This document shows, piece after piece, positions 3,442 to 63,453 of a DNA stretch of 64,000 bases (positions within the stretch are counted from its first letter, which is position 1; each line of letters starts with the position of its first letter). The notes beneath the pieces are model-generated. The model worked only from the letters and a program-made list of their open reading frames with translations, was not told where the DNA came from and did no database searches. Made by a program: the position numbers and the translations under genes. Origin of the DNA: Actinomadura litoris (GTDB lineage: Bacteria; Actinomycetota; Actinomycetes; Streptosporangiales; Streptosporangiaceae); contig NZ_WOFH01000011.1 in the NCBI RefSeq assembly GCF_009733595.1, forward strand, positions 1-64,000, in the 5' to 3' direction.

Positions 3442-3448
3442 AGGGCGG

Positions 3449-4768: not shown

Positions 4769-4778
4769 CGCCCCGGGA

Positions 4779-6797: not shown

Positions 6798-6921
6798 GAC
6801 CGCGCCGCCTCCTTCCCCTACTGTGCTCTTTCGTGCTCCCCGTATGGTGCGGGAAGACCAGTCCAACCATGCCGTGTGGCGGGCGCACGCGCGACACGGC
6901 CCGGGCAGAAGGGGAGGAACC

Positions 6922-45420: not shown

Positions 45421-45473
45421 GGTCGGTCAGCGTTGGTGGGTCAGCGTTGGTGGGTCAGCGCCGGTGGGTCAGC
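45421..45473. repeat. 14-bp tandem repeat spanning a stop codon
   Basis: GTTGGTGGGTCAGC occurs twice without change (45432-45445, 45446-45459). It is flanked by GGTCGGTCAGC on the left and GCCGGTGGGTCAGC (45460-45473) on the right. The last unit supplies the stop codon of the LysM/BTAD gene at 45469-45471. The array fills the 57-bp convergent gap. Confidence 0.75.
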
Positions 45474-48400: not shown

Positions 48401-48528
48401 ACGCCGCCGACCAGCGCCGCCAACGCGAGCATCGCGCCGATGCCCGCCGCGACGTCGCCCGCGCTGCGCCGCCGCCCGCGCGGGGGCGTCATCCGTTGGG
48501 GCGTCCTCCGCCCGTGCCCTGTCACCAT
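45469..48528 (-). CDS. Multi-pass membrane protein with LysM and BTAD transcriptional-activator domains
   Basis: The 1019-residue protein has three predicted helices in the first 135 residues (VAAGIGAMLALAALVGGVPYALL, ALITVLVVLVWLAWAQLTACVVV, HRLVVTALLLFTATSVIMPAF). A LysM-like domain follows at about 190-260 (ESLWEIAEKCLGDGRRYQEIHDLN), then a Pro/Ala-rich stretch and a further helix near 400. The long C-terminal half ends in a winged-helix plus BTAD region (VRLLGPIEVEAPG; VVDVAHRLVVLRLDEGDPHGAVGAARAGLRLAPDDEGLWRDLL in sequence). This unusual fusion is a recurrent actinobacterial neighbour of Tad loci. It may couple pilus or wall state to expression, but DNA binding from a membrane anchor is only inferred. 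It is 58 bp downstream of the last pseudopilin gene. Confidence 0.8.
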   Translation of the reverse strand: MVTGHGRRTPQRMTPPRGRRRSAGDVAAGIGAMLALAALVGGVPYALLTFFGSALPDGMPAASDLTHRLGPGALITVLVVLVWLAWAQLTACVVVEVYAGIRGVGVPARVPLAGGTQSLVHRLVVTALLLFTATSVIMPAFSGGGGLTQQRAAAAARPQAQPQAQEFHRVADAPERPAAAPGDVAEPLTASPAENRTTKIYRVQPPEGRHHESLWEIAEKCLGDGRRYQEIHDLNKNRVQPDGSRLTHASLIRPGWVLEMPADARGAKVIPLQDLDEYYRYGHAVPDKDPAPSKPAPSRPAPSKPAPAEPAPARPPASHAPAPQTPAPHTPAPHTPAPQTPGQQGPAQQHADPRRMPPAGGGADGPSGEMTGGAGSGGASVPGRNSSAQEHDGSFDLGWPHGLAAASLLAAGLLTVLGRRRRVQMWNRAFGHMAVRPEGAAAEVERALRLGADASAARLLDLGLRHLSKSMAAGGRALPTVYGVHLGVESLDLWIAPADRNPPAPWQAFDDGQVWRLRAEDLDAVEAADPAAGAGDVLAPYPGLVSIGTNDNGRILVDLEAAHGLIALRGPADTRRAALAAIALELATNRWSDHMRITLVGFGTEFGEGMAEIAPDRIRAVPNLADAMPELEGRTEEVRQALAASGVDSVLTGRSRGVFGEAWMPHYLIMADPPSEQEADRLVALARTGTRMAAGYIVPGEVQGATWTWDIDAAGRLHAGVLGFQVAAQLVPEEHYHGVFELFRTAGRLDAVPLPEPAGGEEPPAAQRSSAQVRLLGPIEVEAPGPMDEDRRDLCTELLVYLAAHPNGVHPTVLAGAIWPRGVTAAVRDASVARVSDWLGRDTRGRPNLYYDDRGRIKLGSEVRVDLAVFRWLVWRSAAEPASEAAYMSYALDLVRGPLLADRPRGRYSWLASHDLEYEAAARVVDVAHRLVVLRLDEGDPHGAVGAARAGLRLAPDDEGLWRDLLRATHASGDVAQIGVIVDEMRSRIAHDPMFGGLQPETEALVEELLPGWHRVGSR

Positions 48529-48586: not shown

Positions 48587-49036
48587 TCATCGGTCGTCGC
48601 CTCCCGTGACGGGATGGGCCGTCGCGCTGGAGGACATCTGGAACGCCCCGAAACCGGGGATGATGCCGAGGAACTGGGGTTCGACGCGGATCTCGACGGT
48701 CACCGAGACCTCCCCCTCGTCGGCGTCGCAGCGGGACGCGGCGACCTGGTCGCGGTAGACGTCGAGCAGGTCGCACGCGGCGGCGCGGGCCCGGTCCGGC
48801 GCGAGCACAGGCTTGCCCGTGTCGCGCAGCGCCGCGGTGTCGATCTCGTTGGCGCCCGCGCGGGCCGCCTGCTCGGCCATGTCGGCGGCGCGCTGCCGGG
48901 CGTGGATCGCGAGCCCGCCGTCCACGAGCAGACCCGCGAGCATGAACACGACCGGGGTGAACAGCACGACGTACATCGCGACGGACCCGCGCCCGCGACG
49001 CGGCGCGGCGACCCGGCGGCGCAGTGCCCTCACCAT
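48587..49036 (-). CDS. TadE/TadG-like pseudopilin
   Basis: The 149-residue product has a basic leader (VRALRRRVAAPRRGRGS) followed by VAMYVVLFTPVVFMLAGLLVDGGLAIHARQRAADMAEQAARAGANEID in order. This is the hydrophobic N-terminal helix and polar follow-on typical of TadE/TadG proteins, with a small extracytoplasmic domain after it. The ATG shares one base with the preceding stop (TGATG). It is the last pseudopilin of the Tad operon. Confidence 0.82.
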   Translation of the reverse strand: MVRALRRRVAAPRRGRGSVAMYVVLFTPVVFMLAGLLVDGGLAIHARQRAADMAEQAARAGANEIDTAALRDTGKPVLAPDRARAAACDLLDVYRDQVAASRCDADEGEVSVTVEIRVEPQFLGIIPGFGAFQMSSSATAHPVTGGDDR

Positions 49037-49509
49037 CAGGGATCGACCCCGCCGTCGCCGTCGCCGCCCTCGCCCTCGCCGTCGCCGCCCCGGAAGGTGT
49101 AGGTGTCGACGGGCGCGAGCGCGCGCCCCTGGAGCCGCTTGGACCCGGGGAGCCCGATGAACGACAGGTCGCCGAGGTCGACGTCGCAGATGATCGTGAC
49201 CTCGACGCGTCCGCCCGGCCGCCAGTCCTTCACGTCGGTGCTGACGGAAGGCCCGCCCGAGCACCAGTCGTGGCCGCGCAGGCCCGCCGTGGCCGCCTCC
49301 TCCGCGAGGTCCTGCGCGGACGGGGCGCTGCGGGCGATGGACGCGGCGCGCGCACCGTCCCGCGCGGCGCCGTCCACCTGGCTCTGGGCGTCCACCATCC
49401 GCCCGGCGCCCGCCAGGAACAGCAGGAACGCGACGAACAGCGGGGTGACCAGCACCATCTCCAGCGACATCGAGCCGCGCTCGCGGACGGCCCGGGGCAG
49501 GCGGATCAT
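49036..49509 (-). CDS. TadE-like pilus assembly pseudopilin
   Basis: The 157-residue protein starts MIRLPRAVRERGSMSLEMVLVTPLFVAFLLFLAGAGRMVDAQ. RERGSMSLEM is the prepilin-type cleavage/TadE signature with the conserved Glu. The rest is an exported domain with two cysteines (DWCSGG, IICDVDLG) and a Gly/Asp-rich tail. ATGA overlap with the upstream tadE-like gene indicates coupling. Confidence 0.85.
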   Translation of the reverse strand: MIRLPRAVRERGSMSLEMVLVTPLFVAFLLFLAGAGRMVDAQSQVDGAARDGARAASIARSAPSAQDLAEEAATAGLRGHDWCSGGPSVSTDVKDWRPGGRVEVTIICDVDLGDLSFIGLPGSKRLQGRALAPVDTYTFRGGDGEGEGGDGDGGVDP

Positions 49510-49964
49510 CGTGCGGACTCCTGGCAGGCGACGCCGTCGCCGACGTCCGGGCGGAAGCACTCGATCGGCCCGCGCGAGCGCTGCGACACGTGGAACGTCA
49601 TGAACGGGATGACGCGGACCGCCTCGCCGCTCACCTCGACCCAGCGCTCGTCGTCCTCCTCGCCGGTCCGCACCTGGAGGCCGCCGAGCAGGTTGGGGCC
49701 GACCTTGCGGACATCGCCCTCGGCCTGCCGGGACGCCGCGTCCTGCCACCCGCCGCCGACCGGCTGCGTGCGGGCGACGCGGGCGCCCGACTGCGCGGCG
49801 GCGAGCGCGACGTGCCGCGCGTGGTAGACCATCGCGAACTGCACGACGGCGAGCATCACGAAGATGAGGATCGGCGTGAGCAGCGCCCACTCCATCGACG
49901 ACACCCCGGAGTCGGACCGGATCCGCCGCCGCAACTCGCGCAGCCTGCGCGTGCGGGGCCGCAC
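49506..49964 (-). CDS. TadE-like pilus assembly pseudopilin
   Basis: GTG 49964 starts 5 bp after the flp stop and gives 152 residues. RSDSGVSSMEWALLTPILIFVMLAVVQFAMVYHARHVALAAAQSGARVAR shows, in order, the TadE cleavage region with the conserved Glu, the hydrophobic helix and the amphipathic continuation. A small exported domain with a Cys pair (ECFRPDVGDGVACQ) follows. It is translationally coupled to the next gene. Confidence 0.85.
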   Translation of the reverse strand: MRPRTRRLRELRRRIRSDSGVSSMEWALLTPILIFVMLAVVQFAMVYHARHVALAAAQSGARVARTQPVGGGWQDAASRQAEGDVRKVGPNLLGGLQVRTGEEDDERWVEVSGEAVRVIPFMTFHVSQRSRGPIECFRPDVGDGVACQESAR

Positions 49965-49969
49965 GGCGG

Positions 49970-50191
49970 TCAGCCCGTCTTGATGCTGTCGGCCTTCTCC
50001 GTGATCTTCTTCTGGATCACCGCGCCGATCGTGATCGCGATCAGCGCGAGGATCGCGGTGATGATCGCCCATTCGATGGCGGACGCGCCGCGCCCGCGCT
50101 CCTCCCGCGAGCGCAGCCGCGCCAGCCGGGCGCCGAGCACGGCTCTCAGGTAGAGAACGGACGGGTCGTTCAGGGGGTTGAGCGGACTCAT
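49970..50191 (-). CDS. flp: Flp-type pilin subunit
   Basis: The 73-residue protein has a long hydrophilic leader ending REERGRGASAIEWAIITAILALIAITIGAVIQKKI. The Gly-Ala-Ser-Ala-Ile-Glu-Trp region is the prepilin peptidase site with Glu5 of mature Flp pilins, followed by the hydrophobic helix. GGAGGTGCCACG upstream of ATG 50191 is a strong ribosome-binding site, fitting a highly made structural subunit. No prepilin peptidase (TadV) is in the window. Confidence 0.85.
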   Translation of the reverse strand: MSPLNPLNDPSVLYLRAVLGARLARLRSREERGRGASAIEWAIITAILALIAITIGAVIQKKITEKADSIKTG

Positions 50192-50228
50192 CGTGGCACC
50201 TCCAGGAGGTCGCGGGGTCGGGCGGGCG

Positions 50229-51146
50229 TCATGAGGCGAGCACCCGCATGAGGGCCGGGTAGGCCAGGAAGATCAGGAATCCGGCGCACAGGAACAGCTG
50301 CGCGACCAGCATCGACTGGGACCGCTCGCCGGCCTTGCCCTCCAGGTCCGACAGCTCGCGGCTGCGCATCGAGGCAGCGCGCGCGGCCAGCGACTTGCGG
50401 ATCTGCGCGCCGTCGTCGGCGACGAGCGCGAGCGCCCCCGCGAGGTCGCGCAGCTCGGCGACGTCGAGGTCGTCGCCGAGGCGGCCGAGGGCCTGCCAGG
50501 GGGTCTGGCCGGTGATGCGGGCGTTGCCGAGCGCGTCGCGGATGCGGTGCATCGCCCAGCCCTCGCCGACGTTCGAGGCGGTCATCAGCGCCTCGGGGAC
50601 GCCGCGCCCGCCCGCGAGGTTCATCGAGACCAGGTCGAGGAACGCTCCCACGACATGCCGGAAGTCCTGGCGGCGGGCCTGCGCCTCCTGCCGGAGCTGC
50701 ATGTCGGGGAGGAAGAAGAACACGAGCGCGAACAGCAGCCCGACCCACGCGGGGACCTGCACCGACGAGCCGAGCCCGAGCAGCGTGAACCACGCGACGA
50801 GCACCGGGATGAACAGCAGCGCCGCCGAGGGCAGCAGGAACTTGGTCGCGAGGAACCCCTCCAGCGACCGCTCGGTGATCGCGAGGTCGGCGCGGATCGA
50901 GCGGAGCTTCCAGCCGCGCGCCTCGCAGAACCGGACCAGCTCGCGGCCGACCTTCGCGCGCGTCCCGCCGACCCGCTCCAGCGTCGGGGACGCGCGCCCG
51001 GCCTGGGCCTCCTCCAGGTCGCGGCGGCGCGCCGCGTCCAGCGCCGCCATCCGCGCGGCGAGCCCGGGACGCGCCGGGAACAGCGCCCTGACCAGCAGGT
51101 ACAGGCCGCCGCCGATGATCGCCCCGGCGACCATCGCGCCGGTCAC
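50229..51146 (-). CDS. tadC: Tad secretion system inner-membrane protein TadC
   Basis: GTG 51146 overlaps the tadB stop as GTGA. The 305-residue type II secretion F domain protein has an N-terminal helix (VAGAIIGGGLYLLVRALF), two central helices (LPSAALLFIPVLVAWFTLLG; VPAWVGLLFALVFFFLPDM) and the cytoplasmic GspF-like helical segment with FLDLVSMNLAGGRGVPEALMTAS. A C-terminal helix AQLFLCAGFLIFLAYPALM completes it. It forms the pilus assembly platform with TadB. Confidence 0.88.
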   Translation of the reverse strand: MTGAMVAGAIIGGGLYLLVRALFPARPGLAARMAALDAARRRDLEEAQAGRASPTLERVGGTRAKVGRELVRFCEARGWKLRSIRADLAITERSLEGFLATKFLLPSAALLFIPVLVAWFTLLGLGSSVQVPAWVGLLFALVFFFLPDMQLRQEAQARRQDFRHVVGAFLDLVSMNLAGGRGVPEALMTASNVGEGWAMHRIRDALGNARITGQTPWQALGRLGDDLDVAELRDLAGALALVADDGAQIRKSLAARAASMRSRELSDLEGKAGERSQSMLVAQLFLCAGFLIFLAYPALMRVLAS

Positions 51147-52126
51147 GAGCCGCCTCCGCCCGCGTCCATGGTGTGCCGGCCGCGCAGCGGGAGCTCCTGC
51201 GAGCCCGTCGCGGACGCGGCGCCCTGCCAGCCCGCGACCGTGCTCGGCACCTCGCCGGGCACGCCCGGCTGGGCCCTGCGCGGCTCGCTGAGGAACCGTC
51301 CGGGCAGCTCGTACTTCGCCAGCCGCCGCAGCCACAGGAACGCCGCCGCGTACAGCGCGACGACCACGCACAGGACGAGCTGCCCGAGGAAGTCGTCATA
51401 GGGCTCGACGTAGGAGTGGTTGAACACGGCGAGGCCGAGCGCCGTCCCGACCGAGACGCCGACGACGATGCGGACGCTGCGCCGGGTGGAGCGCCGGTCG
51501 GCCTCGACGCGGCGGCGCATGTCCAGCTCGGCGCGGGCGGAGTTCGCGAGCGCGCCGAGCATGTCGCGCAGGCCGGGGCCGCGCAGCTTCGCGTTCAGCA
51601 CCAGCGCCGCGATCACGAGGTCGGCGGACGGGTCGTTCAGGTCGTCGGCGAACCGGCGCAGCGCGTCCGGCATCGGGACGCGGGTGTGCAGCCGGTCGAC
51701 CAGCCCGCGCAGCGGCTGCGCGATGGCGGGCGCGGCGGCGCGCTGCGAGGCGGGGATGGCCTGTTCTAGCCCGACCGCGCCCGCGATCGTGTCGCGCAGC
51801 GACTCGGTCCACGCGGCGAGCGCCTCCAGCCGCGCCATGCCCCGGCGCTCCTCGGCGGCACCGCCCGCGAGGCCGTCCCAGCCGAGGACGAGCACGCCCG
51901 TCCCGGCGGCGGCGATCGGCCAGCGGGTCACCACCAGCACCGCCGCCCCGGTGATGACCGCGACGGCCGTCCGGGTGGTCAGCGTGCGGACGAGTTCCTC
52001 GCGGCTGCGCCCGCGCACCGGGCGCGTCCGCACCGGCAGCCCGCGCAGCGCGAGGACCAGCAGCACGATCCCGCCGCCGGCCACGGAGCCCGCGATGACG
52101 GCGAACATCACGTCCGGCGTGCCCAT
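51143..52126 (-). CDS. tadB: Tad secretion system inner-membrane protein TadB
   Basis: ATG 52126 lies 6 nt after GGAGG; GTG 52129 is adjacent. The 327-residue product has N-terminal helices (VMFAVIAGSVAGGGIVLLVLAL; AVAVITGAAVLVVTRWPIAAAG). A GspF-like domain follows with LEQAIPASQRAAAPAIAQPLRGLVDRL and LVIAALVLNAKLRGPGLRDMLGALA, plus C-terminal helices near 210-275. It partners TadC and contacts the TadA ATPase. The gap to tadA is 45 bp. Confidence 0.88.
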   Translation of the reverse strand: MGTPDVMFAVIAGSVAGGGIVLLVLALRGLPVRTRPVRGRSREELVRTLTTRTAVAVITGAAVLVVTRWPIAAAGTGVLVLGWDGLAGGAAEERRGMARLEALAAWTESLRDTIAGAVGLEQAIPASQRAAAPAIAQPLRGLVDRLHTRVPMPDALRRFADDLNDPSADLVIAALVLNAKLRGPGLRDMLGALANSARAELDMRRRVEADRRSTRRSVRIVVGVSVGTALGLAVFNHSYVEPYDDFLGQLVLCVVVALYAAAFLWLRRLAKYELPGRFLSEPRRAQPGVPGEVPSTVAGWQGAASATGSQELPLRGRHTMDAGGGGS

Positions 52127-52171
52127 CACCGGCCTCCGCTTCGACCGGGCGGCGTCCTCACCACGGTGTTC

Positions 52172-53470
52172 TCACCACACACCCCCGGACGGGTCGTAGC
52201 CGTGCTCGGCCAGCTCGTTCGCGCACGCGATCGGCGCGGCGGGGACGGCATGCCCCTCAGGACCGAGCGCGAACACCTCCGAGGACAGGACCCGCCCGTC
52301 CACGCCCGTGACCTCCCGGACGCTCGCGACGTAGCGGCGCAGCCGCCCGCCGGTGGCGTAGTCGTTGTGCTTCTCGATGAACACGACGAAGTCGATGGCG
52401 CCCGCGATCAGCATGTGCGTCGCCTCGACCGGCAGCCGCTCCTCCGACTGGATCGCGTAGGTGGCGACGCGGTTGAACACCTCCACCGAGGAGTTCGCGT
52501 GGATCGTGGACAGCGAGCCGTCGTTGCCCTGCGTCATCGCGTTCAGCATCGTGACGATCTCGTCGCCGAGCACCTCGCCGACGATCACCCGGGACGGGTT
52601 CATCCGCAGCGACCGGCGCACCAGCTCGGCCATCGAGATCGCGCCCTGCCCCTCGGAGTTCGGCAGCCGCTGCTCGAAGGCCACGCAGTTCGGGTGCAGG
52701 TCGGGGAAGGCGTCCAGGCCGAGCTCCAGCGCCCGCTCGACGGTGATGAGCCGCTCGTGCGCCGGGATCTCGTTGGCGACCGCGCGCAGCAGCGTCGTCT
52801 TCCCCGCGTTGGTCGCGCCCGCGATCATGATGTTCTTGCGGGCGTGCACGGCGGCGCGGAAGAAGTGGCCGAGCTCCGGGCTGAACGTGCCGTTGCCGAC
52901 CAGGTCGGCGAGGAACACCTTGCCGAGGCGGGCGCGGCGGATCGACAGCGCGGGGCGGACGGTCACGTCCATCACCGCCGAGAGCCGCGACCCGTCGGGC
53001 AGCCGCAGGTCGAGCTGCGGGTTCGCGGTGTCGAACGGGCGCGAGGACAGCCCGCTGTAGGCGGCGAGGATCTGGATCAGCTCGACCAGCTCCTCGTCGC
53101 TCTCGGCGACCGGCTCGCCCATCACCTCGCGCCCGTCGGCGTAGCCGATGAACACCCGGTCGCAGCCGTTGACGTCGATGTTCTCGATCTCGGGGTCCTC
53201 CAGCAGCGGCTGGAGCCGGCCGACGCCGAACAGCGCCGCGTGCACGCCCGCCGCGAGGGCCTCTTCCTCCTCGGCGTTCGGCGGCCGGCGGCCCGAGGTG
53301 ATCTCGCCGCGCGCGAACTCCTCCAGCACCTGCCCGATCAGCGCGCGGGCGAACTGCCGCTCGTCCTCCCCGGTCATCGGCGGCATGCCGTGCGCGGCGT
53401 CGAGGCGGCGCTGCTGCGCGAGGCGGTCGCCGACCTCCTGGCGGAGCCGCTTGACGAGACCGTGGTCCAT
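52172..53470 (-). CDS. tadA: Tad pilus assembly ATPase TadA (CpaF)
   Basis: The 432-residue type II/IV secretion ATPase has an N-terminal helical domain, IENIDVNGCDRVFIGYADGRE, then Walker A GATNAGKTTLLRAVANEIP near 218. ITVERALELGL (Asp box region), VRRSLRMNPSRVIVGEVLGDEI (Walker B) and MTQGNDGSLSTIHANSS (His box) follow. It powers pilin assembly from the cytoplasm. Its ATG directly follows the tadZ stop. Confidence 0.93.
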   Translation of the reverse strand: MDHGLVKRLRQEVGDRLAQQRRLDAAHGMPPMTGEDERQFARALIGQVLEEFARGEITSGRRPPNAEEEEALAAGVHAALFGVGRLQPLLEDPEIENIDVNGCDRVFIGYADGREVMGEPVAESDEELVELIQILAAYSGLSSRPFDTANPQLDLRLPDGSRLSAVMDVTVRPALSIRRARLGKVFLADLVGNGTFSPELGHFFRAAVHARKNIMIAGATNAGKTTLLRAVANEIPAHERLITVERALELGLDAFPDLHPNCVAFEQRLPNSEGQGAISMAELVRRSLRMNPSRVIVGEVLGDEIVTMLNAMTQGNDGSLSTIHANSSVEVFNRVATYAIQSEERLPVEATHMLIAGAIDFVVFIEKHNDYATGGRLRRYVASVREVTGVDGRVLSSEVFALGPEGHAVPAAPIACANELAEHGYDPSGGVW

Positions 53471-54445
53471 CTACCGGTCCCCCTTCTCGCCGCGCCCGCC
53501 CGCAGGGACCTGCTCGCCCGCGTACCCGGCCCCGGCGGGGACGCCGTGCACGCCGGGCGAGGAGTCGGCGGGACGTCCCGGGGCGGGGCCGTAGGGCGCG
53601 GCGGGCGCGGGCTGGAGCCGTCCGACCAGGTCGGCGGCGACCTCGCGGGCGGAGCGGATCAGCAGCGAACGGTCCAGCCGGCCGCCCCAGCTTCCCGACA
53701 GCAGCGCGGCGCCCTTCGGGTCGAGCGCCAGCCCGCCGAGCACGGTGACGGTGGGCGGCGGCGGACCGGCGGGCTCGGCGCCCGCGTCCCCCGGCGACCG
53801 TCCGCGCGCACCGGCGACGATGCGGTCGACCTCGGCGATCGAGCCGCGGAAGTCCCTCGGGTCGGCGAGCACGAGCACGCCGAGCGGCGGGCCGCCGCGC
53901 AGGTCCTCCGACAGCGCGGCGACGCGTTCGCGCAGGTGCGCGACCTGCTCCAGCGTCGCCCGCGTCAGCAGGACGACGAGGTCGGCCTCGCGCAGCAGGT
54001 CGGTCAGCGGCGTGCCCGCGCCGAGCCGCCCGCAGTCGACGATCACATCGACGGGGGCGAGGCCGGCGAAGGCGCGGCCGAGTGGGCCCCACAGCCACGT
54101 CATGGCCTGCGCCTGCTCGGCGTTGGTGAGCCCGACCAGCACGTCCAGCCCGCCGACGAGCCGCTGGCAGTGCTCGGCGACCTGCTCGGGGCGCAGCCCG
54201 CGCCGGGCGGTCGCGGCGAGGCTGAGCAGCCCGCGCGACGGGTTCAGCATGCCGCCGTCGCGGTCCTGCTCCTGGCCTCCCCGGCCGGAGTCGGACGGCG
54301 CGGCGGGCAGCCGGTACACCAGGTCGCCGCCCGCCTGGTCGCACTCGGCGACCAGCACGGGACGCGGCCACACGGCGCCGAGGGCCACGGCCGCGGTGGT
54401 GACGCCCGGCGCCCCCTTGTCGGCCGCGAGCGCGATGAGGGCCAC
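53471..54445 (-). CDS. TadZ/CpaE-like MinD-ParA family protein with degenerate P-loop
   Basis: The 324-residue product starts VALIALAADKGAPGVTTAAVALGAVWPRPVLVAECDQAGGDL. It aligns by position with the deviant Walker A of ParA/MinD proteins (KGG-x-GKT), but the signature lysine of GKT is replaced by Val. VDVIVDCGRLGAGTPLTDLLREADLVVLLTRA supplies the Walker B region. TadZ proteins localise the Tad machine and often have altered nucleotide sites. The C-terminal 60 residues are Pro/Gly-rich. The start is 2 bp after the cpaB-like stop. Confidence 0.8.
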   Translation of the reverse strand: MALIALAADKGAPGVTTAAVALGAVWPRPVLVAECDQAGGDLVYRLPAAPSDSGRGGQEQDRDGGMLNPSRGLLSLAATARRGLRPEQVAEHCQRLVGGLDVLVGLTNAEQAQAMTWLWGPLGRAFAGLAPVDVIVDCGRLGAGTPLTDLLREADLVVLLTRATLEQVAHLRERVAALSEDLRGGPPLGVLVLADPRDFRGSIAEVDRIVAGARGRSPGDAGAEPAGPPPPTVTVLGGLALDPKGAALLSGSWGGRLDRSLLIRSAREVAADLVGRLQPAPAAPYGPAPGRPADSSPGVHGVPAGAGYAGEQVPAGGRGEKGDR

Positions 54446-54447
54446 GG

Positions 54448-55320
54448 TCAGTTCCCGCCTGTGGCAGGGGGCCGCGCGCCGGGCCCCTGGGTTCCGGGGT
54501 TCTGCGTGCCCGGGTTCTGCGTCCCCGGGTTCTGCGTGCCGCCCGGCTGCTGCGGGGGCGGGGCCTCCTCGGTGGCGGGCGGCTGCTTGCCCGCGGGCGG
54601 CTGCGCGACCTTCGTCCCCTCCGGGACGAGCGCGAGCGCGACCGTCCCGGCGGACGCGGCCTGGGTGAGCAGCGGCGCGTCGGCGGGCAGGACGGCGACG
54701 TCCACCGACGTCTGGTCCGAGCGCAGCCGGTCGCCGCCGCCGCGTCCGACGCCGACGACGACCGCGTCCGCGGACAGCACGGTTCCGGCGCGGGGGCCGC
54801 CGCTCGTCCCGCCGCCGACCGCGTAGAGCGTCACCCGCCTGCCGGTCTCGACGTCGCGCGCCGGAAGCTGGCCCGGTTTGAGCGCGAGCCCGACGACGAC
54901 CCGGCCCTTGGCCGCGTCGTCCGCCCGGCTGATCATGGAGTTGGTCAGCAGCGCGCCCTTCACCAGCGGGACGGCCGCGTAGTAGCGGCCCACGTTCTGC
55001 CGCTCCGACCAGTTGATGTACTGGATGCCGGTGTCGCCGACCGGCACCTCCTCCAGCGCGCCCGGCGGGATGCGCTGCCCGGCCGCGACCGGCTGCGCGA
55101 TCCGGATCGCCGACACCCGCTGGCCGCTCGCCATCACGAGGTAGGCGCTGGCGAGCGCGCCGCCGAGGATCAGCAGCACCGCGAGCGCGGCGAGTGCCGG
55201 CTTGCGCTCGCGCGGGGACGTGGGGAGCCGCTGCCCGCCCGAGGTCCCGAGTCCGGACCGGCCCAGCCCCGCTGTGCCGCCCGGCGGGCTCGCCGAGACG
55301 GTCGACTGGTTGGACTTCAT
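54448..55320 (-). CDS. CpaB/RcpC-like SAF-domain pilus assembly protein
   Basis: ATG 55320 gives 290 residues with a cytoplasmic Ser/Gly leader and one transmembrane helix at about 45-65 (ALAALAVLLILGGALASAYLVM). A SAF domain follows (IRIAQPVAAGQRIPPGALEEVPVG; RYYAAVPLVKGALLTNSMIS), then the RcpC/CpaB second domain. The C-terminal tail has three to four GTQNPGTQNPG repeats. It is the first gene of the Tad operon as seen. No secretin gene is present, as expected for a monoderm. Upstream in-frame starts exist but lie in sequence without coding support. Confidence 0.82.
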   Translation of the reverse strand: MKSNQSTVSASPPGGTAGLGRSGLGTSGGQRLPTSPRERKPALAALAVLLILGGALASAYLVMASGQRVSAIRIAQPVAAGQRIPPGALEEVPVGDTGIQYINWSERQNVGRYYAAVPLVKGALLTNSMISRADDAAKGRVVVGLALKPGQLPARDVETGRRVTLYAVGGGTSGGPRAGTVLSADAVVVGVGRGGGDRLRSDQTSVDVAVLPADAPLLTQAASAGTVALALVPEGTKVAQPPAGKQPPATEEAPPPQQPGGTQNPGTQNPGTQNPGTQGPGARPPATGGN

Positions 55321-55479
55321 GCGCTCGCCACGAGCTCCTTCCCGCACCGCTTTCCCGGACCGCGGGGGCCTCGCGCCGCGAGGTCTCCGCATCACCGAGC
55401 GATCCATGCTTGCGGTGCCGACGACGCCACGTCAATGGATTCGGTGAGGTGAAGCGCCCGCCCGGCGGAGCGCACCGCC

Positions 55480-55696: not shown

Positions 55697-58600
55697 ATGC
55701 GGATCTCGTTCACGGCGCTGACCGGCGGCGGGCCACGGGACGTCGTGATCACCGTGGACTCCGGCGCCACCGTGGACGGCGTCGCGCGGTCGCTGTCGAC
55801 CACGCTCGACGAGCGGCCGGTACCCCGCTTCTCCAAGGACGCCCAGCAGGCGGAGGCCGAGCGGAAAGCGCTGTGGATGGACGGGCGGATGCTCGACCCG
55901 CAGGCCCTCGCCGTCAAGGAGCTGCGCGACGGCGCGGTCGTCGCGGTCGAGCGGCGCGGCGCCGCCGCCACCGTGCGGGCCGAGCCGTCCGGGCTCGTGG
56001 AGGTGCGCGTCGTCGGCGGTCCGGCCGCCGGGTCGGTGCACCGGCTCGGGCTCGGCGTCGCCACGGTCGGCTTCGGCGACGACGTCGACGTCCGGCTGGA
56101 CGACCCGTCGGTGCCCGCCCGGTCGCTGCGGATCACGGTCGGGGTGGAAGACGTGCTGGTCGAGCCGTCGGCGATGACGCGGGCCGCCCTCGACGGCGAG
56201 CCGCTGGCCGATCCCGCGCGCTGGCCCGCCGGGGGGCTGCTGTCGGTCGGCTCCAGCGTGCTCGCGCTGATGCCGAGCGCCGCGCCCGACACGCACCTGG
56301 AGCCGCTGCCCGAGGGCGGGCTGGCGTTCAACCGCCCGCCCCGGCTGAACCCGGGGAGCCACGTCCGGTCGCTGGAGGTGCCCGAGCGCCCCGAACGCAA
56401 CCCGCGCGAGCGGCTCCGGTTGTTCGGCGCGCTGCTGTTCTCGGTGTTCGGGCTGGTCATGGCGTTCGCGATGGGCCAGTGGTGGTGGGCCCTGTTCGCG
56501 CTCGCCTGGCCGGTGATGACGGTCGGCGAGTGGATCGGCGACCGCATGCACGGGCGCAAGTCGTACAAGAAGGCGCTGAAGGAGTACCAGCGCAAGGCAG
56601 GCGAGTTCGACGGGGAACTGGAGCGGCTGCGGCGCGAGGACCAGGCCGAACGCCGCGCCCTTTACCCCGACCCCGCCGAGGTGCTGCTGACCGCGACCGG
56701 CCCCCGGCGGCGGCTGTGGGAGCGCCGCCGCGACGACCCCGACGCGCTGCACCTGCGGCTCGGCCTCGCCGACCTGCCCGCGCGGATCGAGCTGACCGGC
56801 GACGTCCCGGTCCCGGTCGCGAAGCAGGTGCCGGTCGCGCTGCCGCTCGCGCAGCTCGGGGTGCTCGGGCTCACCGGCCCGCGCCCCGCCTCCCGCGCGC
56901 TCGCCCGCTGGATCGTCGCGCAGGCCGCCGCCCTGCACAGCCCCCGCGACCTCGCCGTCGTCGTGCTGTCGGCCGACGCCGAGGCGGGCGAGGAGTGGAA
57001 CTGGGTGCGCTGGCTGCCGCACTGCGCGCCGCGCGAGGGCGAGGACTGCGTGGCGCTCGTCGGCACCGACCCCGAGTCGGTCGCGCGCCGCGTCACCGAA
57101 CTCGCGATCCGGGTGACCGAGCGGCGCCGCGCCGCGCAGGCCGGGGCGCAGTTCTTCGGGCAGGGGAAGGCCGCCGACGCCGTCCCGTACAACATCCTCA
57201 TCGTGCTGGACGGGGCGCGCACGCTGCGCCGCGTCCCGGGCATGCCCATGCTGCTCTCGCGCGGCCCCGAGTTCGGCCTCTACGCCGTGTGCGTGGACGA
57301 CGAGGAGCGCCTCCTGCCCGAGGAGTGCGCCGCCGTCGCCGCCTGGGACGCGCGGTACCCGTCCTACGTCCACCTGCGCGGCCAGGGGCTGGACGTCCTC
57401 GGACCCGTGCTCGCCGACCAGGTCTCCCCGTCCTGGACCGACCGCGTGGCCCGCGCGCTCGCCCCCGTCCGCGACGTGTCCCGCGAGGACGCGGAGGAGG
57501 CCATCCCGTCCACCGTGCGGCTCCTGGACCTCCTCGACATGCCCGAGCCCACCGCCGACCACATCCTGCGCACCTGGACGCGCACCCGCGGGCGCACCAC
57601 CCGCGTCCCCATCGGGATCGGCGCGGGCAGCCGCACCGGCCGCCCCCACCAGCCCTACCGCGTCGACCTGCGCGCCGACGGCCCGCACGGGCTCATCGCC
57701 GGGACCACCGGCGCGGGCAAGTCCGAGCTGCTCCAGACCCTGATCGCCTCGCTGGCCGTGGCGAACCGCCCGGACGAGATGACGTTCGTCCTCATCGACT
57801 ACAAGGGCGGCGCCGCGTTCAAGGACTGCGCCCGCCTCCCGCACACCGTCGGCATGGTCACCGACCTGGACGGCCACGCCACCGAACGCGCGCTGGAGTC
57901 CCTGTCCGCCGAGCTGCGGCGCCGCGAGGAGGTCCTGCTCGCCCACGGCGCCAAGGACGTCGACGACTACAACGACCTGCGCCCCGCGAACCCCGGGCTG
58001 CCGCCGATGCCGCGCCTCGTCCTCGTCATCGACGAGTTCGCCGCCATGGTCACCGACCTGCCCGACTTCGTCACCGGCCTGGTCGACATCGGACGCCGCG
58101 GCCGCTCCCTCGGCGTCCACCTGATCCTGGCCACCCAGCGCCCCGCCGGGGTGGTGACCGCCGACATCCGCGCCAACACCAACCTGCGCGTCGCGCTGCG
58201 CGTCACCGACCCGGACGAGTCGACCGACGTCCTGGACTCCCCCGAGGCCGCGCAGATCTCCAAGTCCACCCCGGGCCGCTGCTACGTGCGCTCCGGCGGC
58301 TCGCTGCACGCCGTCCAGTCCGCCCGGATCGGCGGCCGCCGCCCCGGCGCCACCGACCGCCGCACCACGATCCTGCCGCTCCCCTGGCAGCGGCTCGGCC
58401 GCCCCCTCCCCGCGCCCCGCGAGGCGCCCGACGACCTCGCCACCGACCTCGCCCTCCTGGTCGAGGCGATCGACGAGGCCGCCCGCCGCGCCGGGATCGC
58501 CCGGCAGCCCTCCCCCTGGCTCAACCCGCTGCCCGACCAGGTCCGCCTGACGCCCCGCACCGCCGCCGGGGGCTCGGTGGCCGACGTCCCGCCGATCCCG

Positions 58601-60127
58601 TTCGGCGTCACCGACCTGCCCGCCGTCCAGTCCCGCGAGGAACTCGCCCTCGACCTCACCACCGGCGGCCACCTCTACCTCGCCGGCTCCGCGCAGTCGG
58701 GACGCTCCACCGCCCTGCGCACGATCGCGGGCGCCCTCGCCGGGGCGTGCTCCCCCTACGACGCCCACCTGTACGCGATCGACTGCGGCGCGGGCGCGCT
58801 CCTCCCCCTGATCTCCCTCCCGCACTGCGGCGCCGTCGTCAGCCGCGACCAGCTCGACCGCTGCGAGCGCCTGCTCACCGCCCTGTCCGCCGAGGTCGCC
58901 CGCCGCCAGCAGCTCCTCGCCGGAGCGGGCTTCGCCTCCCTCCCCGAGCAGCGCGCCGCCGTCGCCGCCACCGACCGCCTCCCCTGGATGATCCTGCTCC
59001 TGGACCGCTGGGAGGGCTTCCTCGGCGCGTTCGAGCACTACGACTACGGCCGCCTCGTCGACCAGACCCTCCGGCTCCTGCGCGAGGGCGCCGCCGTCGG
59101 CCTGCGCGCCGTCTTCACCGGCGACCGCTCCGGCCTCGGCGGGCAGATCTCCACCGTCTTCGACCGCCGCCTCATCCTGCGCATGTCCGACCCGAACGAC
59201 TACGGCTACGCGGGCCTCCAGGAGAAGCACGTCCCGGCCGCGATGCCCCCGGGCCGCGCCCTGGAGTCGGTCACCCCGGGCGCGCCGCTGCGCGAATCCC
59301 AGATCGGCCTGCTCTCGGACGACCCGTCCGGCACGTCCCAGGTCGCCGTCCTCCAGGAGATCGCCCGCGCCTCCGTCACCCGCTACGGCCGCCTGCCCCG
59401 CCGCCAGCGCCCCCTCCGCGTGGACGAGCTCCCCGTCCGCGTCACCTACCGCGAGGCCATGGCCCTGGACGCCGACTTCCTCGCCCCCTCGGCCCTCTGG
59501 GCCCTCGTCGGCGTGGGCGGCGACACCCTCGCCCCCGTGGGCATCGACCTCCTGAACGAGGGTCCGGGCTTCGCCGTCGCGGGCCCGCCCCGCTCCGGCC
59601 GCTCCACGACCCTCCGGACGATCGTCCACTCCCTCCTGGACCCCGCGGTCGGCGGCGGCCTGGTCCCCGTGGTCCTCGTGACCCCCCGCCGCTCGCCCCT
59701 GCGCCTCCTCCAGGGCCGCCCCGGCGTCCTCGGCGTCCTCACCTCCGACTCCGACCCCGACGACCTGGAAAAGGCGATCGGCGACGAACACCGCTACGCC
59801 GTCATCGTCGACGACGCCGAACTCCTGGACGAGACCGACCTCGACGACGCCCTCCGCGACGTCCTGCGCACCGCCCGCGACGGCGAGCACGCCGTCGTCA
59901 TCGGCGGCACCACCACCGACCTGACCCGCGGCTACCGGGGCTTCCTCTCCGACACCCGCCGCTCCCGCTCCGGCGTCCTGCTCTCCATAGAATCCCCGGA
60001 CGACGGCGAACTGTTCAACCTGCGCCTCCCCCGAAACGCCCCGCTGATAGGCCCGACCGGCCGAGGCCTCTTCGTGGCCAGCGGCCTGTCAACCCAGATC
60101 CAGGTAGCCCTGCCCCCCGCCGACTGA
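55697..60127 (+). CDS. Type VII secretion FtsK/SpoIIIE ATPase, EccC/EssC type with N-terminal FHA-like region
   Basis: AAGGAGGGCACGG precedes ATG 55697. The 1476-residue protein has a ubiquitin/FHA-like N-terminus to about 190 and two transmembrane helices at about 241-280 (LFGALLFSVFGLVMAFAMGQ; WWWALFALAWPVMTVGEWIG). A DUF-type linker and three FtsK-like ATPase domains follow. The first has an intact Walker A (AGTTGAGKSELLQT near 671-679) and DYKGGAAFKD and VLVIDEFAAM. The second (AGSAQSGRSTAL, about 995) and third (AGPPRSGRSTTL, about 1294) have Arg in place of the P-loop Lys. This is the energising channel component of ESX/T7SS systems, translocating WXG100 substrates. EccB, EccD, EccE and MycP genes are absent nearby. 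It converges on the lipoprotein gene with 3 bp between stops. Confidence 0.9.
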   Translation: MRISFTALTGGGPRDVVITVDSGATVDGVARSLSTTLDERPVPRFSKDAQQAEAERKALWMDGRMLDPQALAVKELRDGAVVAVERRGAAATVRAEPSGLVEVRVVGGPAAGSVHRLGLGVATVGFGDDVDVRLDDPSVPARSLRITVGVEDVLVEPSAMTRAALDGEPLADPARWPAGGLLSVGSSVLALMPSAAPDTHLEPLPEGGLAFNRPPRLNPGSHVRSLEVPERPERNPRERLRLFGALLFSVFGLVMAFAMGQWWWALFALAWPVMTVGEWIGDRMHGRKSYKKALKEYQRKAGEFDGELERLRREDQAERRALYPDPAEVLLTATGPRRRLWERRRDDPDALHLRLGLADLPARIELTGDVPVPVAKQVPVALPLAQLGVLGLTGPRPASRALARWIVAQAAALHSPRDLAVVVLSADAEAGEEWNWVRWLPHCAPREGEDCVALVGTDPESVARRVTELAIRVTERRRAAQAGAQFFGQGKAADAVPYNILIVLDGARTLRRVPGMPMLLSRGPEFGLYAVCVDDEERLLPEECAAVAAWDARYPSYVHLRGQGLDVLGPVLADQVSPSWTDRVARALAPVRDVSREDAEEAIPSTVRLLDLLDMPEPTADHILRTWTRTRGRTTRVPIGIGAGSRTGRPHQPYRVDLRADGPHGLIAGTTGAGKSELLQTLIASLAVANRPDEMTFVLIDYKGGAAFKDCARLPHTVGMVTDLDGHATERALESLSAELRRREEVLLAHGAKDVDDYNDLRPANPGLPPMPRLVLVIDEFAAMVTDLPDFVTGLVDIGRRGRSLGVHLILATQRPAGVVTADIRANTNLRVALRVTDPDESTDVLDSPEAAQISKSTPGRCYVRSGGSLHAVQSARIGGRRPGATDRRTTILPLPWQRLGRPLPAPREAPDDLATDLALLVEAIDEAARRAGIARQPSPWLNPLPDQVRLTPRTAAGGSVADVPPIPFGVTDLPAVQSREELALDLTTGGHLYLAGSAQSGRSTALRTIAGALAGACSPYDAHLYAIDCGAGALLPLISLPHCGAVVSRDQLDRCERLLTALSAEVARRQQLLAGAGFASLPEQRAAVAATDRLPWMILLLDRWEGFLGAFEHYDYGRLVDQTLRLLREGAAVGLRAVFTGDRSGLGGQISTVFDRRLILRMSDPNDYGYAGLQEKHVPAAMPPGRALESVTPGAPLRESQIGLLSDDPSGTSQVAVLQEIARASVTRYGRLPRRQRPLRVDELPVRVTYREAMALDADFLAPSALWALVGVGGDTLAPVGIDLLNEGPGFAVAGPPRSGRSTTLRTIVHSLLDPAVGGGLVPVVLVTPRRSPLRLLQGRPGVLGVLTSDSDPDDLEKAIGDEHRYAVIVDDAELLDETDLDDALRDVLRTARDGEHAVVIGGTTTDLTRGYRGFLSDTRRSRSGVLLSIESPDDGELFNLRLPRNAPLIGPTGRGLFVASGLSTQIQVALPPAD

Positions 60128-60130
60128 TTC

Positions 60131-60703
60131 TCAGGAGGGCCGGGGCGTGCACTTATGAATCTCCCCGAACCGCCTCTCGGCGATCCGCATGAAATCCACC
60201 ATATCCCGCACAGCATCCCGCCCCCGCACCACCGGAGCGAAGTCGATGCTCATCCAGGGCCGCCTCTTTCCGCACGAGAATCGACTGATGACGTAATTGG
60301 GCCGCGGAACGGCACCCAAGCTCGGATTGATCACCGCCAAACCGCTCCCCAACTCGGCTGGAAGCGGATGCGTGGCGGCCTTCGCCCATCTCGTGCGTTG
60401 AACCCCGAGAATCTCGTCACCGCCATCAAAGGCCCAGTCGATCCCCAGGGGCGCCTCGCGACCTTTCGCGTGCGCAAGACAAAGCCCATTCTTCGTCGGC
60501 ACCCCGGACCAGTACGCATTGAGTGCGACGGTCAACCCGGTGACAGCTCGAAATGCCTTTTCGGGGACCAGATCACACAGGTAGGGAGCATTGTCCGCAA
60601 CGGGGCCCAGGTCAGCACTTGGAGTCGCTTTCGGAGAACCCGACTCGCATCCGGCGACGAACAACCCGACCGCCACGCAAGCACTCACCAACAATGGCCG
60701 CAT
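60131..60703 (-). CDS. Lipoprotein of unknown function in the type VII-linked cluster
   Basis: The 190-residue product starts MRPLLVSACVAVGLFVAGCES, a lipoprotein signal with lipobox VAGC and lipidated Cys near 19. The exported domain has YLCDLVPEKAFRAVTGLTVALNAYW, LCLAHAKG, FSCGKRRPW and IHKCTPRP, so about four cysteines could form two disulfides. The layout recalls actinobacterial DUF3558-like lipoproteins, but I cannot confirm the family. The DNA is less GC-rich (about 53-65% in 60-base samples) than neighbouring genes. ATG 60703 is 5 bp after the stop of the 721-residue protein, implying cotranscription. A partner or surface-immunity role for that protein is conjecture. Confidence 0.75.
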   Translation of the reverse strand: MRPLLVSACVAVGLFVAGCESGSPKATPSADLGPVADNAPYLCDLVPEKAFRAVTGLTVALNAYWSGVPTKNGLCLAHAKGREAPLGIDWAFDGGDEILGVQRTRWAKAATHPLPAELGSGLAVINPSLGAVPRPNYVISRFSCGKRRPWMSIDFAPVVRGRDAVRDMVDFMRIAERRFGEIHKCTPRPS

Positions 60704-60708
60704 GGAGG

Positions 60709-62874
60709 CTATCTTTCGATCGAAGGGCCGACGTTGTGCCCGTCTTTGTCCCGATAATGGCCCGCCGTCTTGATGGCGCCATTGAAGACAGAGTTCATCA
60801 TGGCGTCACTCAGATCCGAAAGACCCTTCTTGTCATCGGCCCATCGAAGGAGCCTCTCCGTTTCATCTGGATTGAGCTCCTCGATCGGGCGCACTTTGGG
60901 CGGCTCTCCCTCCGTGGCGAAGGAGTTGCCGGCCACTCCCGGGCCGTCGAGGCGGCCGTGGGATACCAGGGAGGATGTGATCATCTGGTTGAGGAGGCGT
61001 TCCAGGTTCTCGGTTTCGGTTGTGGGGGCCACTATGGCGGGTTCGGCCTTGTCGGCCAGGCGTTTTGCCAGCCAGTTGGTCATTTGGGTGGTGGCCTTGG
61101 CGGAGGCGGCGGCGTAGGCCTTGCCGCCCAGGGGGGATTTCGAGGCGACCATGTCGGTGCCCAGGGGGACCAGGCCCACGCCGTAGCCGACGTATTTGCG
61201 CATGCGTTCCAGGTCTTCGGCGAGGCGGGCCTCTTCGGCGCCCACGGACTGGTGGCGGGCCTCCAGGAGGTGGCCGAACATGCGGCCCTCGCCGACGACG
61301 GCGTTGGTGAGGTCGCCGTCGCGGGCGACGGTGCGGTCGATGGTGATCTTGGAGTGGGCGAGCTGGCCCATGATCAGGGTTTCGTAGGCCCGCGCGTCGC
61401 GGGTGATGTCCAGGAGGAGGTAGTCGAGGTCGTCGCCGGTCAGGCCGGTGGAGCCGGGGCGCTCGTCGTAGTTGGCCAGGCGGACGAGGTCGTGCAGGCG
61501 GTCCAGGTGGGCGACGAGGACCTTGGCCATGCCGGGGCGGAGCCCGGAGAGTTCGTCGTAGTGGTGCGGGCGGGCGATGGCGTCGGCCAGGTCGCCGCTC
61601 CTGAGGGCGGCGAGGGGGGACTTGTCTCCCACGGTGACCTTGCCGTCCTTGACCGGGTAGTTCGGACGGGCGTCGTCCGCGAGGAGCTTGGCGATCTCGA
61701 AGGCGAGGCGGGAGGACTCGGGGTCCTGGCCGGTGGCCGCGGCCTCGATGGTCTTGCCGAGGGCCGCGCCGTGGTCGGACTCGCCCCAGACGGCGCGGCG
61801 GTCGTGCAGGAGGTATTCGAGGTTGGTGACCTTGATGCCCGGAACGGCGCCGAGCTGCTGGGGGCCGTTCCACTCGCGGGTGAGGAGGGCCTGGGCCGCC
61901 TCCGCGCCGGACGCGGCGGCCGCCGTCAGAAGGGGCGAGAGGAAGTCGGTCTTGCGGTCGTCCGCCTTGACCTTGGTGGTGGACGGGTCGAGGGCGTTGC
62001 CCAGGCGGTACCGGGTGGCGAGGTCGGTGAGGGGGAGCTGGCCCAGGCGCTTCCGGACACCGCTGTCGTAGGCGATCATGTCGTTGCCGACGACGTTGAC
62101 GAAGTGGAACGAGAAGCGGGTGTCCGTCGAGCCGATCAGCGTGGCGAGGGACTGGTAGCCCGCGACGCCGTTCGGGAGCGTGCTGCGCGGCGGGAAGGTC
62201 GTGCGGCCGGCGCGGCGGAGGGCGAGCAGGTAGTCCTCGCCGAGGTAGCCCTTGCCCCGGCTGTCGGTGCCGAGCGCGACGGCGCGGCCGAGGAGGGCGA
62301 GGATCGCGCGGGTGTCGGCGGCGTCGGCGTCGGTGCCGGAGCGGTGCTGGGTGATGTCGCCGGAGAGCTTCAGCGAGAGCGCCATCGGGAGCTTGAGGAG
62401 TTCCTCGGGGCCGAGCGCTTCGAGGAGGCCCTTGGCGAACAGCGGGGTGATGTCGGACGGCTGGAGGCGCCGCAGCTCCGTCCGGGCGGCGGCGTCGCCG
62501 CTCGCGGCGCGGCGGAACAGGTCGGCTTCGCGGCGGCCGGCGGCGTAGCCGACCTGGTCGGTGTAGCGGTCGGGGAGCCGCAGGTAGGTGCCGTCGGCGC
62601 GGCAGACGGTGAAGGCGAGGTGCTGCCGGTCGAGGTCGCGTGCGAGCAGGTTGCGCCGCCGCAGGTCGGTCGCGGCGTCCTCGGTCCAGGCGGCGATGCG
62701 CTTGATCTCCATCGCGGGGGCCGTGCTGACCCCGGCGCCGTGCAGGGCCTGCCAGAGGTCGTCGGCGAGCCGGCGGAGCGCGGGCGCGGCCCGGCTCATG
62801 TCCTCGGTCATGTGCTCGAACTCGGCGAGCTTGACGCCGCAGGCGTCGGGGCCGAGCCATCCGTCCGCGGTCAT
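60709..62874 (-). CDS. Large protein of unknown function encoded with WXG100 proteins
   Basis: The 721-residue protein has no signal peptide. Its first 120 residues are helical (VKLAEFEHMTEDMSRAAPALRRLADDLWQALHG), like N-termini of type VII substrates. The middle is soluble and helical, with LGRAVALGTDSRGKGYLGEDYLLALRRAG, FSFHFVNVVGNDMIAYDSGV, LDYLLLDITRDARAYETLIMGQL and VVGEGRMFGHLLEARHQ. A mildly hydrophobic patch is near 595. The last about 80 residues (PKVRPIEELNPDETERLLRW onward) are encoded by DNA of about 48-65% G+C, far below the rest. The ATG overlaps the small W-x-G gene's stop (ATGA). I cannot assign a family; a secreted effector or matrix protein is possible. Confidence 0.72.
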   Translation of the reverse strand: MTADGWLGPDACGVKLAEFEHMTEDMSRAAPALRRLADDLWQALHGAGVSTAPAMEIKRIAAWTEDAATDLRRRNLLARDLDRQHLAFTVCRADGTYLRLPDRYTDQVGYAAGRREADLFRRAASGDAAARTELRRLQPSDITPLFAKGLLEALGPEELLKLPMALSLKLSGDITQHRSGTDADAADTRAILALLGRAVALGTDSRGKGYLGEDYLLALRRAGRTTFPPRSTLPNGVAGYQSLATLIGSTDTRFSFHFVNVVGNDMIAYDSGVRKRLGQLPLTDLATRYRLGNALDPSTTKVKADDRKTDFLSPLLTAAAASGAEAAQALLTREWNGPQQLGAVPGIKVTNLEYLLHDRRAVWGESDHGAALGKTIEAAATGQDPESSRLAFEIAKLLADDARPNYPVKDGKVTVGDKSPLAALRSGDLADAIARPHHYDELSGLRPGMAKVLVAHLDRLHDLVRLANYDERPGSTGLTGDDLDYLLLDITRDARAYETLIMGQLAHSKITIDRTVARDGDLTNAVVGEGRMFGHLLEARHQSVGAEEARLAEDLERMRKYVGYGVGLVPLGTDMVASKSPLGGKAYAAASAKATTQMTNWLAKRLADKAEPAIVAPTTETENLERLLNQMITSSLVSHGRLDGPGVAGNSFATEGEPPKVRPIEELNPDETERLLRWADDKKGLSDLSDAMMNSVFNGAIKTAGHYRDKDGHNVGPSIER

Positions 62875-63104
62875 GCGCGGCGGAGCTCGTCCTCGACGAG
62901 CCGGAGCGCCCTCTGTAATGCGGCGCGCAGGGCGGCGTCGTTGCGTTCCAGTCTGGCGGCGAAGGAGCGGGCCGCCGCGCCGCCGACCCAGGCGCGGTCG
63001 TCCATGGCGCGGCGGGACGCGGTGAAGGTGTGCCAGTGCTGGTCGGACAGCGTCTGGATGCGACTCAGAAGGAACCGCAGGCGGGCGGCCTCGGCCTGGT
63101 TCAC
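62871..63104 (-). CDS. Small W-x-G helical protein (WXG100-like partner)
   Basis: GTG 63104 follows GGAGGAAGGGC. The 77-residue product is two helices around a turn: NQAEAARLRFLLSRIQTLSDQHW, then RAWVGGAAARSF with a W-V-G at about 40-42, then ARLERNDAALRAALQRALRLVEDEL. This is the WXG100 hairpin architecture, though shorter than the usual 95-100 residues. It lies between the WXG100 gene and the 721-residue protein gene, coupled to the latter, and could form a heterodimer with the WXG100 protein or act as a chaperone. This is inference. Confidence 0.72.
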   Translation of the reverse strand: MNQAEAARLRFLLSRIQTLSDQHWHTFTASRRAMDDRAWVGGAAARSFAARLERNDAALRAALQRALRLVEDELRRA

Positions 63105-63180
63105 GCCCTTCCTCCAGGGAATGGTGCGGGCCCCGGCCTCGGGGGGATGGGCCGGGACCCGCGGTCTTGGGGGGCGGACG

Positions 63181-63453
63181 TCAGCGCGTGGCGGCCTCGA
63201 TGTTCTGCTGGGCCTTCTTGATGTCCTGGCCGCCCTGCTCCAGGGCGAGCGCCATCTTGTCGAAGGCGGTCTTGGCCTCGGCCCAGGCGGAGCGGAAGCG
63301 GTCGGCGCCGGGGCCCCACCAGGCCTGGGAGCTGCTGACCGTGCGCCCGTTCAGATCCTTGATCAGCGCGTCGAGATTGCGGGAGTGCTTGCTGAAGATC
63401 CGGGACAGCTCCTCCAGTTCGCCGATGTTGGCGCCGCGCCTGTCACCGCTCAC
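63181..63453 (-). CDS. WXG100-family type VII secretion substrate
   Basis: GTG 63453 gives 90 residues. The helix-turn-helix pattern is LEELSRIFSKHSRNLDALIKDLNG, then SSSQAWWGPGADRFRSAWAEAKTAF containing W-x-G at the turn, then a second helix MALALEQGGQDIKKAQQNIEAATR. These are EsxA/EsxB-type features. It is the first gene of the minus-strand type VII-linked set and pairs naturally with the EccC ATPase 3.3 kb away on the other strand. Confidence 0.9.
   Translation of the reverse strand: MSGDRRGANIGELEELSRIFSKHSRNLDALIKDLNGRTVSSSQAWWGPGADRFRSAWAEAKTAFDKMALALEQGGQDIKKAQQNIEAATR

Follow-up and report, generated by a model that had tools for sequence, protein, structure and literature searches.

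The window, a stretch of 64,000 nucleotides from contig C3 of Actinomadura litoris, carries near its right end an EssC-type ATPase gene facing 4 genes on the opposite strand, and it raises the question of whether these genes make up a secretion system and, if so, which parts belong to the machine and which to its cargo. A preliminary description had seen in them a single module, either a satellite island that relies on core components from another locus or a reduced system in which a 721-aa protein is the substrate or belongs to the structure. All 5 open reading frames proved to be real genes conserved across species. The ATPase (1476 aa; 55697..60127 in the ORF list, + strand) is convergent with the gene of its core partner, a 90-aa WXG100 protein (63181..63453, - strand). 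Between them, also on the - strand, are a 77-aa helical hairpin protein with a W-V-G turn (62871..63104), a candidate co-secretion partner; a 721-aa DUF6571-like protein (60709..62874), a candidate substrate; and a 190-aa lipoprotein (60131..60703), a candidate immunity protein or surface-anchored partner. The minus-strand genes are coupled or closely spaced, as first described: 4 bp are shared by the 77-aa and 721-aa genes, the lipoprotein gene starts 5 bp past the 721-aa stop codon, and 76 bp separate the WXG100 gene from the 77-aa gene. This gap holds a G+C-rich 13-bp hairpin (63126..63162, - strand), a possible terminator or attenuator with no U run, whose stem recurs identically in 2 relatives (G007 and G019). 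Third-position G+C is 0.90-0.98 in 4 of the 5 genes and 0.71 in the lipoprotein gene. Across named loci, the order WXG100, 77-aa, 721-aa was found in 21 of 23, and the lipoprotein gene came next in all 18 whose 721-aa match extends to residue 712 or beyond. The module is real and T7SS-like, but it consists of 2 units, a core pair of ATPase and WXG100 protein and an accessory triad operon of the other 3 genes. On the WXG100 side, an SPFH/Band 7 (flotillin-like) membrane protein (locus L009, 9772-10953; C3:64772-65953) adjoins the locus in some relatives only.

The ATPase begins with a predicted beta-grasp-like domain (residues ~1-93), followed by an FHA domain (98-195) and 3 FtsK_SpoIIIE stretches, in agreement with the earlier view of a three-ATPase protein with an FHA-like N-terminus. 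By eye, the Walker A lysine is kept only in ATPase domain 1 (GTTGAGKS, vs GSAQSGRS and GPPRSGRS in the other 2). Its domain order and top NCBIfam matches are those of T7SS EssC/EccC proteins, with scores under the cut-offs of TIGR03924 (402.4 vs 509.15 bits), TIGR03925 (310.8 vs 346.55 bits), and TIGR03928, the model of T7SSb EssC (517.9 vs 778.4 bits). Three ESX-type EccCs of the same genome exceed the EccCa cut-off. The small partner is a canonical WXG100 protein, as had been described, and passes PF06013 (35.7 vs 27.3 bits). An FtsK-type ATPase with N-terminal membrane segments and 3 ATPase domains is thus accompanied by a WXG100 protein, which is what a T7SS in the wide sense comprises. 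A second, distant FHA-EssC, 44-45% identical, was identified at loci L100 (G047:C5) and L101 (G053:C332), with its own WXG100 gene 200-320 bp off and several membrane proteins behind. At L102 (G065:C12), FHA-EssC lies among ORFs that by eye resemble PP2C phosphatase, protein kinase, and FHA proteins, a company that resembles descriptions of other T7SS subtypes.

Of the triad proteins, the smallest has an invariant A-W-V turn and a pattern of W-V-G turn plus hairpin; it gave no PF06013 match at E <=1 and only a chance-level match in Pfam and NCBIfam. The lipoprotein, with the lipobox VAGC read by eye, matched nothing in Pfam and NCBIfam. The 721-aa protein falls just short of the cut-off of Pfam DUF6571 (PF20211; 26.4 bits, cut-off 27), and 12 of its 18 aligned homologues match that model at E <=1e-3 (best 7.8e-11), as do 3 of 7 homologues of other genera. 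This alignment covers 18 loci of the set L024-L044 (21 in all): L031 was left aside, L034 was dropped because it lies at a contig end, and L038 because its start is ambiguous. The predicted model bears out the helical N-terminus proposed earlier: a helical hairpin (16-47, 52-83), one of the most strongly conserved regions, is followed by a long helical body. The predicted fold gave no enzyme match, and the protein is conserved through its C-terminus, unlike polymorphic toxins.

A Tad/Flp pilus cluster (48587..55407, - strand), absent from the preliminary description, starts 289 bp from the ATPase gene and is divergent from it. It encodes CpaB (54448-55407), TadZ (53471-54448, named by eye), TadA (52172-53470), TadB (51143-52129), TadC (50229-51371), and TadG/TadE-like proteins (48587-49890, named by eye), all on the - strand, as well as a Flp-like pilin. 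TadA was found in 59 of the 60 Actinomadura genomes that form our genus sample, whose named relatives include Spirillospora albida, and Tad lies within 8 kb of EssC in all 51 genomes having both on one contig; this count excludes 8 genomes with the genes on different contigs and G050, which had no TadA match. At the EssC loci of 9 other genera, CpaB, TadZ, TadA, and TadB are divergent from EssC in 18/18, and the WXG100 gene is convergent in 14/18, an EccB-bearing ESX locus adjoining the remaining 4. Since the linkage holds in 51/51 genus genomes, 18/18 other-genus loci, and at least 1 further family, coincidence is unlikely. On the side of the Tad cluster away from the ATPase lies the gene of a 1019-aa protein (45469..48528, - strand) with 3 hydrophobic segments within residues 22-143, a BTAD domain at the C-terminus, and a LysM-like stretch (~200-262) seen by eye only, with no Pfam LysM match. 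A protein encoded immediately ahead of WXG100-EssC in another family shares 40-41% identity with it, and further matches adjoin FHA-EssC at L094 and L095. From this sequence context, the membrane protein may be another component of the secretion system.

Within the genus, FHA-EssC and WXG100 form a core pair that is vertically inherited, next to Tad, and independent of ESX genes. An orthologue of the ATPase is present in 60/60 genomes and one of the WXG100 protein in 50/60, the latter 82-99% identical across the named loci possessing it. One clade of 9 genomes keeps EssC and Tad and lacks WXG100, a single loss on the EssC tree when the contig-edge genome G050 is set aside. Because this clade retains the ATPase, EssC may have another job; the clade weighs against a simple export picture and leaves room for other EssC functions. 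In several of its members (L088-L093 region), EssC has an epimerase-like gene immediately upstream. A different elaboration was seen at L086 (G042:C5:222000-233500, 2497-7415), where 2 additional WXG100 copies, 91-93% identical, each precede a protein of 453-469 aa and one of ~190 aa. The larger proteins share their N-terminal part and diverge toward the C-terminus, and the sets resemble polymorphic toxin-immunity pairs served by the same WXG100.

The triad follows another pattern. The 721-aa gene was identified in 24/60 genomes and is missing from 36/60; we counted as present the fragmentary matches in G052 (70 aa), G053 (contig end), G024 (2 contigs), and G049 (2 pieces), and did not count G026, whose match (31% over 70 aa) is a different protein. 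Its presence requires 10 changes on the EssC tree, 6 of them forced by well-supported branches, and the triad was lost at least 6 times on such branches. Among 26 triad-less genomes compared at the locus, 18 have 88-440 bp between the stop codons of WXG100 and EssC, and in the remaining 8, 977-5354 bp of other DNA lie between the 2 genes. The triad-less G019, sister of G007, retains 83 bp matching the interior of the G007 721-aa gene (77%, E 1.8e-11), which, judged from the sequence, is a deletion scar. Recurrent loss and this scar together indicate that the triad is old cargo and not part of the machine. Other genes occupy the place between WXG100 and EssC in triad-less genomes (L074-L081), among them that of a 1174-aa nSTAND1-WD40 protein at L074 (G008:C4, 2002-5526).

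Outside the genus, a query with the family alignment gave matches in 36 of 200 same-family genomes and 16 of 68 genera. We analyzed 20 other-genus loci from 18 genomes, taken among 33 matching non-genus genomes and picked for complete matches. The 77-aa, 721-aa, and lipoprotein genes kept their order and strand in 20/20. The expectation that homologues of the 721-aa protein occur together with WXG100 or EccC genes held in the genus and at some loci of 2 other families, where a triad-type unit adjoins FHA-EssC, but at none of these 20 same-family loci was a WXG100 or EssC match found within the stretch. In G081, a genome of another family, locus L099 has the order Tad, 1010-aa membrane protein, WXG100, EssC, 115-aa W-x-S protein, DUF6571, lipoproteins. 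Its DUF6571 protein (696 aa) scores 35.2 bits against the cut-off of 27, and a profile comparison of the window's 721-aa family with it was weak, at a probability of 5.6%, so that the DUF6571 link rests on the Pfam model and gene order. In 40 DUF6571 neighborhoods of ~20 kb each, selected from the match list, FHA-EssC was identified in 8, and in 24 no T7SS gene was found within ~20 kb. Of the 40 loci, 24 encode a small W-x-[GSC] protein upstream of DUF6571 (control genes: 26 of 161), and 16 encode a lipobox protein downstream (control genes: 15/161), the other 24 having none there; both occur together in 9/40 vs 6/161. Locus L141 has 2 triad-like sets after EssC, the large protein of the first being a presumed DUF6571 member.

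How the locus relates to ESX systems bears on 2 alternative explanations. The absence of EccB, EccD, EccE, and MycP noted in the preliminary description is true of the locus, where the scanned ORFs gave no EccB, EccD, or MycP match, but the genome has 2 ESX loci elsewhere (C1 and C4), EccD genes at C1, C4, and C3:85429, and an ESX-like locus at C3:83.5-93 kb. The thought that a complete ESX locus might follow the window directly is correct only in that this ESX-like locus exists: it lies ~19.5 kb past the right edge, and in G007 a distance of 2.7 Mb separates EssC from the matching EccD. Just before it, at L010 (G000:C3:75001-95000, 848-7482), related 776- and 830-aa proteins, the first without a Pfam match, alternate with ~225-310-aa proteins. 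That EccB, EccD, and MycP are missing at the locus and encoded elsewhere in the genome speaks for a satellite ATPase/substrate island borrowing an ESX membrane core. EccD, however, is missing in 6 of the 60 genus genomes, all of which retain EssC and WXG100. In 5 of these, the top EccC-like match is FHA-EssC itself (375-390 bits) and the next reaches at most 119.5 bits, the level of FtsK; 3 of the 5 are single-contig assemblies, and the sixth EccD-less genome, G052, has fragments of other EccCs. The EccD search also found none in 15 of 16 EssC-bearing genomes outside the genus. Since genomes without EccD and ESX-type EccC keep the core pair, an ESX core elsewhere is not needed, and the satellite explanation is very improbable, being unsupported for ESX and largely refuted for EccD and EccC. 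A different connection to ESX would be that the triad is cargo of ESX or of several T7SSs and stands beside FHA-EssC in this genus by historical accident. The ESX loci of the window's own genome fit this, as do the ESX-type genes in 8 of the 40 DUF6571 neighborhoods (4 with EccC) and the position of the triad away from FHA-EssC in 20/20 other-genus loci, many of whose genomes have ESX-like EccCs. It is at odds with G049, which retains the 721-aa gene in 2 aligned pieces with no ESX EccC or EccD found, with the unit's place beside FHA-EssC in 2 other families, and with the presence of FHA-EssC elsewhere in all 18 other-genus triad genomes, the last of which alone is no proof of dependence. We consider this explanation unlikely.

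The reduced system of the preliminary description fits better than the satellite, and of the 2 roles it left to the 721-aa protein, substrate is favored over structural part, because 36/60 genomes lack the gene, its loss is repeated, and the triad lies apart from EssC in other genera (20/20 loci). A structural or envelope-spanning protein of a reduced machine, with the lipoprotein as its anchor, would suit the full-length conservation, the single long helical body of the model, the lipoprotein partner, and the lack of a toxin-like variable C-terminus, but EssC persists in all the genomes without the protein, and inspection of the protein, made without a predictor, showed neither a signal peptide nor a transmembrane segment; we hold this role to be quite improbable. 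Nor do we find it probable, though somewhat less remote, that FHA-EssC is no exporter at all and serves the Tad pilus or a DNA or cell-envelope process, with WXG100 regulating EssC and the triad an unrelated neighbor. FtsK-type ATPases also move DNA, and the linkage of EssC with Tad is stronger than that with WXG100, the 9 genomes of the WXG100-less clade keeping EssC and Tad. Against it stand the EssC/EccC domain order and best NCBIfam matches of the ATPase, the convergence of WXG100 with EssC in most species, and the WXG100 genes near FHA-EssC in several distant genomes where Tad was not found nearby.

Our preferred reading, to which we assign a probability of about 0.55, is that this is a Tad-linked, non-ESX T7SS locus of Actinomycetota with a cargo operon for a candidate substrate, a small protein that pairs with it, and a lipoprotein of the cell surface. 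Among published systems, the T7SSc-T7SSj subtypes come nearest, above all T7SSd and T7SSg/T7SSh, as set out in the available part of a 2024 survey (Garrett et al. 2024, PMC11217815). Shared with the T7SSc-j group are an EssC-like ATPase and WXG100 protein, few other parts, and substrates near small WXG100-related partners. T7SSd, reported from Olsenella and Bifidobacterium with the kinase TsdD, TsdH, and TsdI and no ubiquitin-like protein (PMC11217815, in part), has the phylum Actinomycetota and the FHA domain of the ATPase in common with the locus, whereas here the scanned locus proteins gave no kinase or Ig-like Pfam match. T7SSg and T7SSh, from Bacillota, are likewise Tad-adjacent, but their ATPases are without FHA, and the locus differs by its FHA domain and Actinomycetota host. 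In that survey, as far as the part available goes, the question of whether the Tad link is functional or coincidental was left open, few genera being available, and the main text contains none of the terms Streptomyces, Micromonospora, Actinomadura, and "lipoprotein" (PMC11217815).

The better-known systems are further off. ESX/T7SSa shares the FtsK-type three-ATPase protein and WXG100, but the locus is without EccB, EccD, EccE, and MycP, its ATPase is under the EccC cut-offs, and an FHA domain is present. T7SSb shares an EssC with N-terminal FHA and a single WXG100, but has 2 FHA domains where we found a beta-grasp-like domain and 1 FHA, and the ATPase is under the EssCb cut-off; none of EssA, EssB, or EsaA was seen among the locus ORFs scanned. 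The locus is thus a T7SS variant in the wide sense and not a member of ESX, T7SSb, T7SSd, T7SSg, or T7SSh. None of the papers searched describes this Tad-linked arrangement of FHA-EssC, WXG100, and triad, and the subtype is apparently new to the literature. For the cargo, the nearest likeness is TslA-TlaA1/TlaA2-TilA of Staphylococcus aureus T7SSb, described, in the part of the source available, as a large substrate targeted through a helical region, together with small helical partners and a co-encoded lipoprotein (PMC10730906). TslA combines a phospholipase domain with a helical domain at its C-terminus, whereas no enzyme can be recognized in the 721-aa protein, which carries its hairpin at the N-terminus; the TslA system has 2 small partners and the triad operon 1, for which WXG100 could be the second.

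Under the preferred reading, EssC would export WXG100, and the triad, as its sequences suggest, probably makes an exported protein and a cell-surface lipoprotein. WXG100 proteins and substrate-partner pairs are helical bundles recognised by EssC/EccC (PMC11217815, in part), and the 77-aa hairpin together with the N-terminal hairpin of the 721-aa protein would form a composite signal through which EssC exports the latter, the 2 acting as a substrate-partner pair with WXG100 as co-substrate. The intergenic hairpin between the WXG100 and 77-aa genes would allow excess WXG100 production. The lipoprotein would be the surface partner of the 721-aa protein, most likely in immunity, as TilA is for TslA (PMC10730906, in part); by this analogy, it is perhaps an immunity protein. 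A bolder and doubtful extension is that a new T7SS subtype of at least 3 actinobacterial families joins FHA-EssC/WXG100 and the Tad pilus in 1 apparatus. There, EssC and the 1019-aa protein as its envelope partner would carry cargo tagged with WXG100, the DUF6571 protein for instance, through the membrane at the Tad machine and deliver it on contact, while the lipoprotein would protect sister cells.

The Tad link found here involves a different, FHA-bearing ATPase from that of the Bacillota T7SSg/T7SSh, as those are described in the available part of the survey (PMC11217815). Whether such a link is functional or coincidental can be tested in these harmless soil bacteria, some of which are without any ESX system. 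The analysis also connects DUF6571 with T7SS-type loci, as part of a constant set of 3 genes in which a small hairpin protein and a lipoprotein are its companions.
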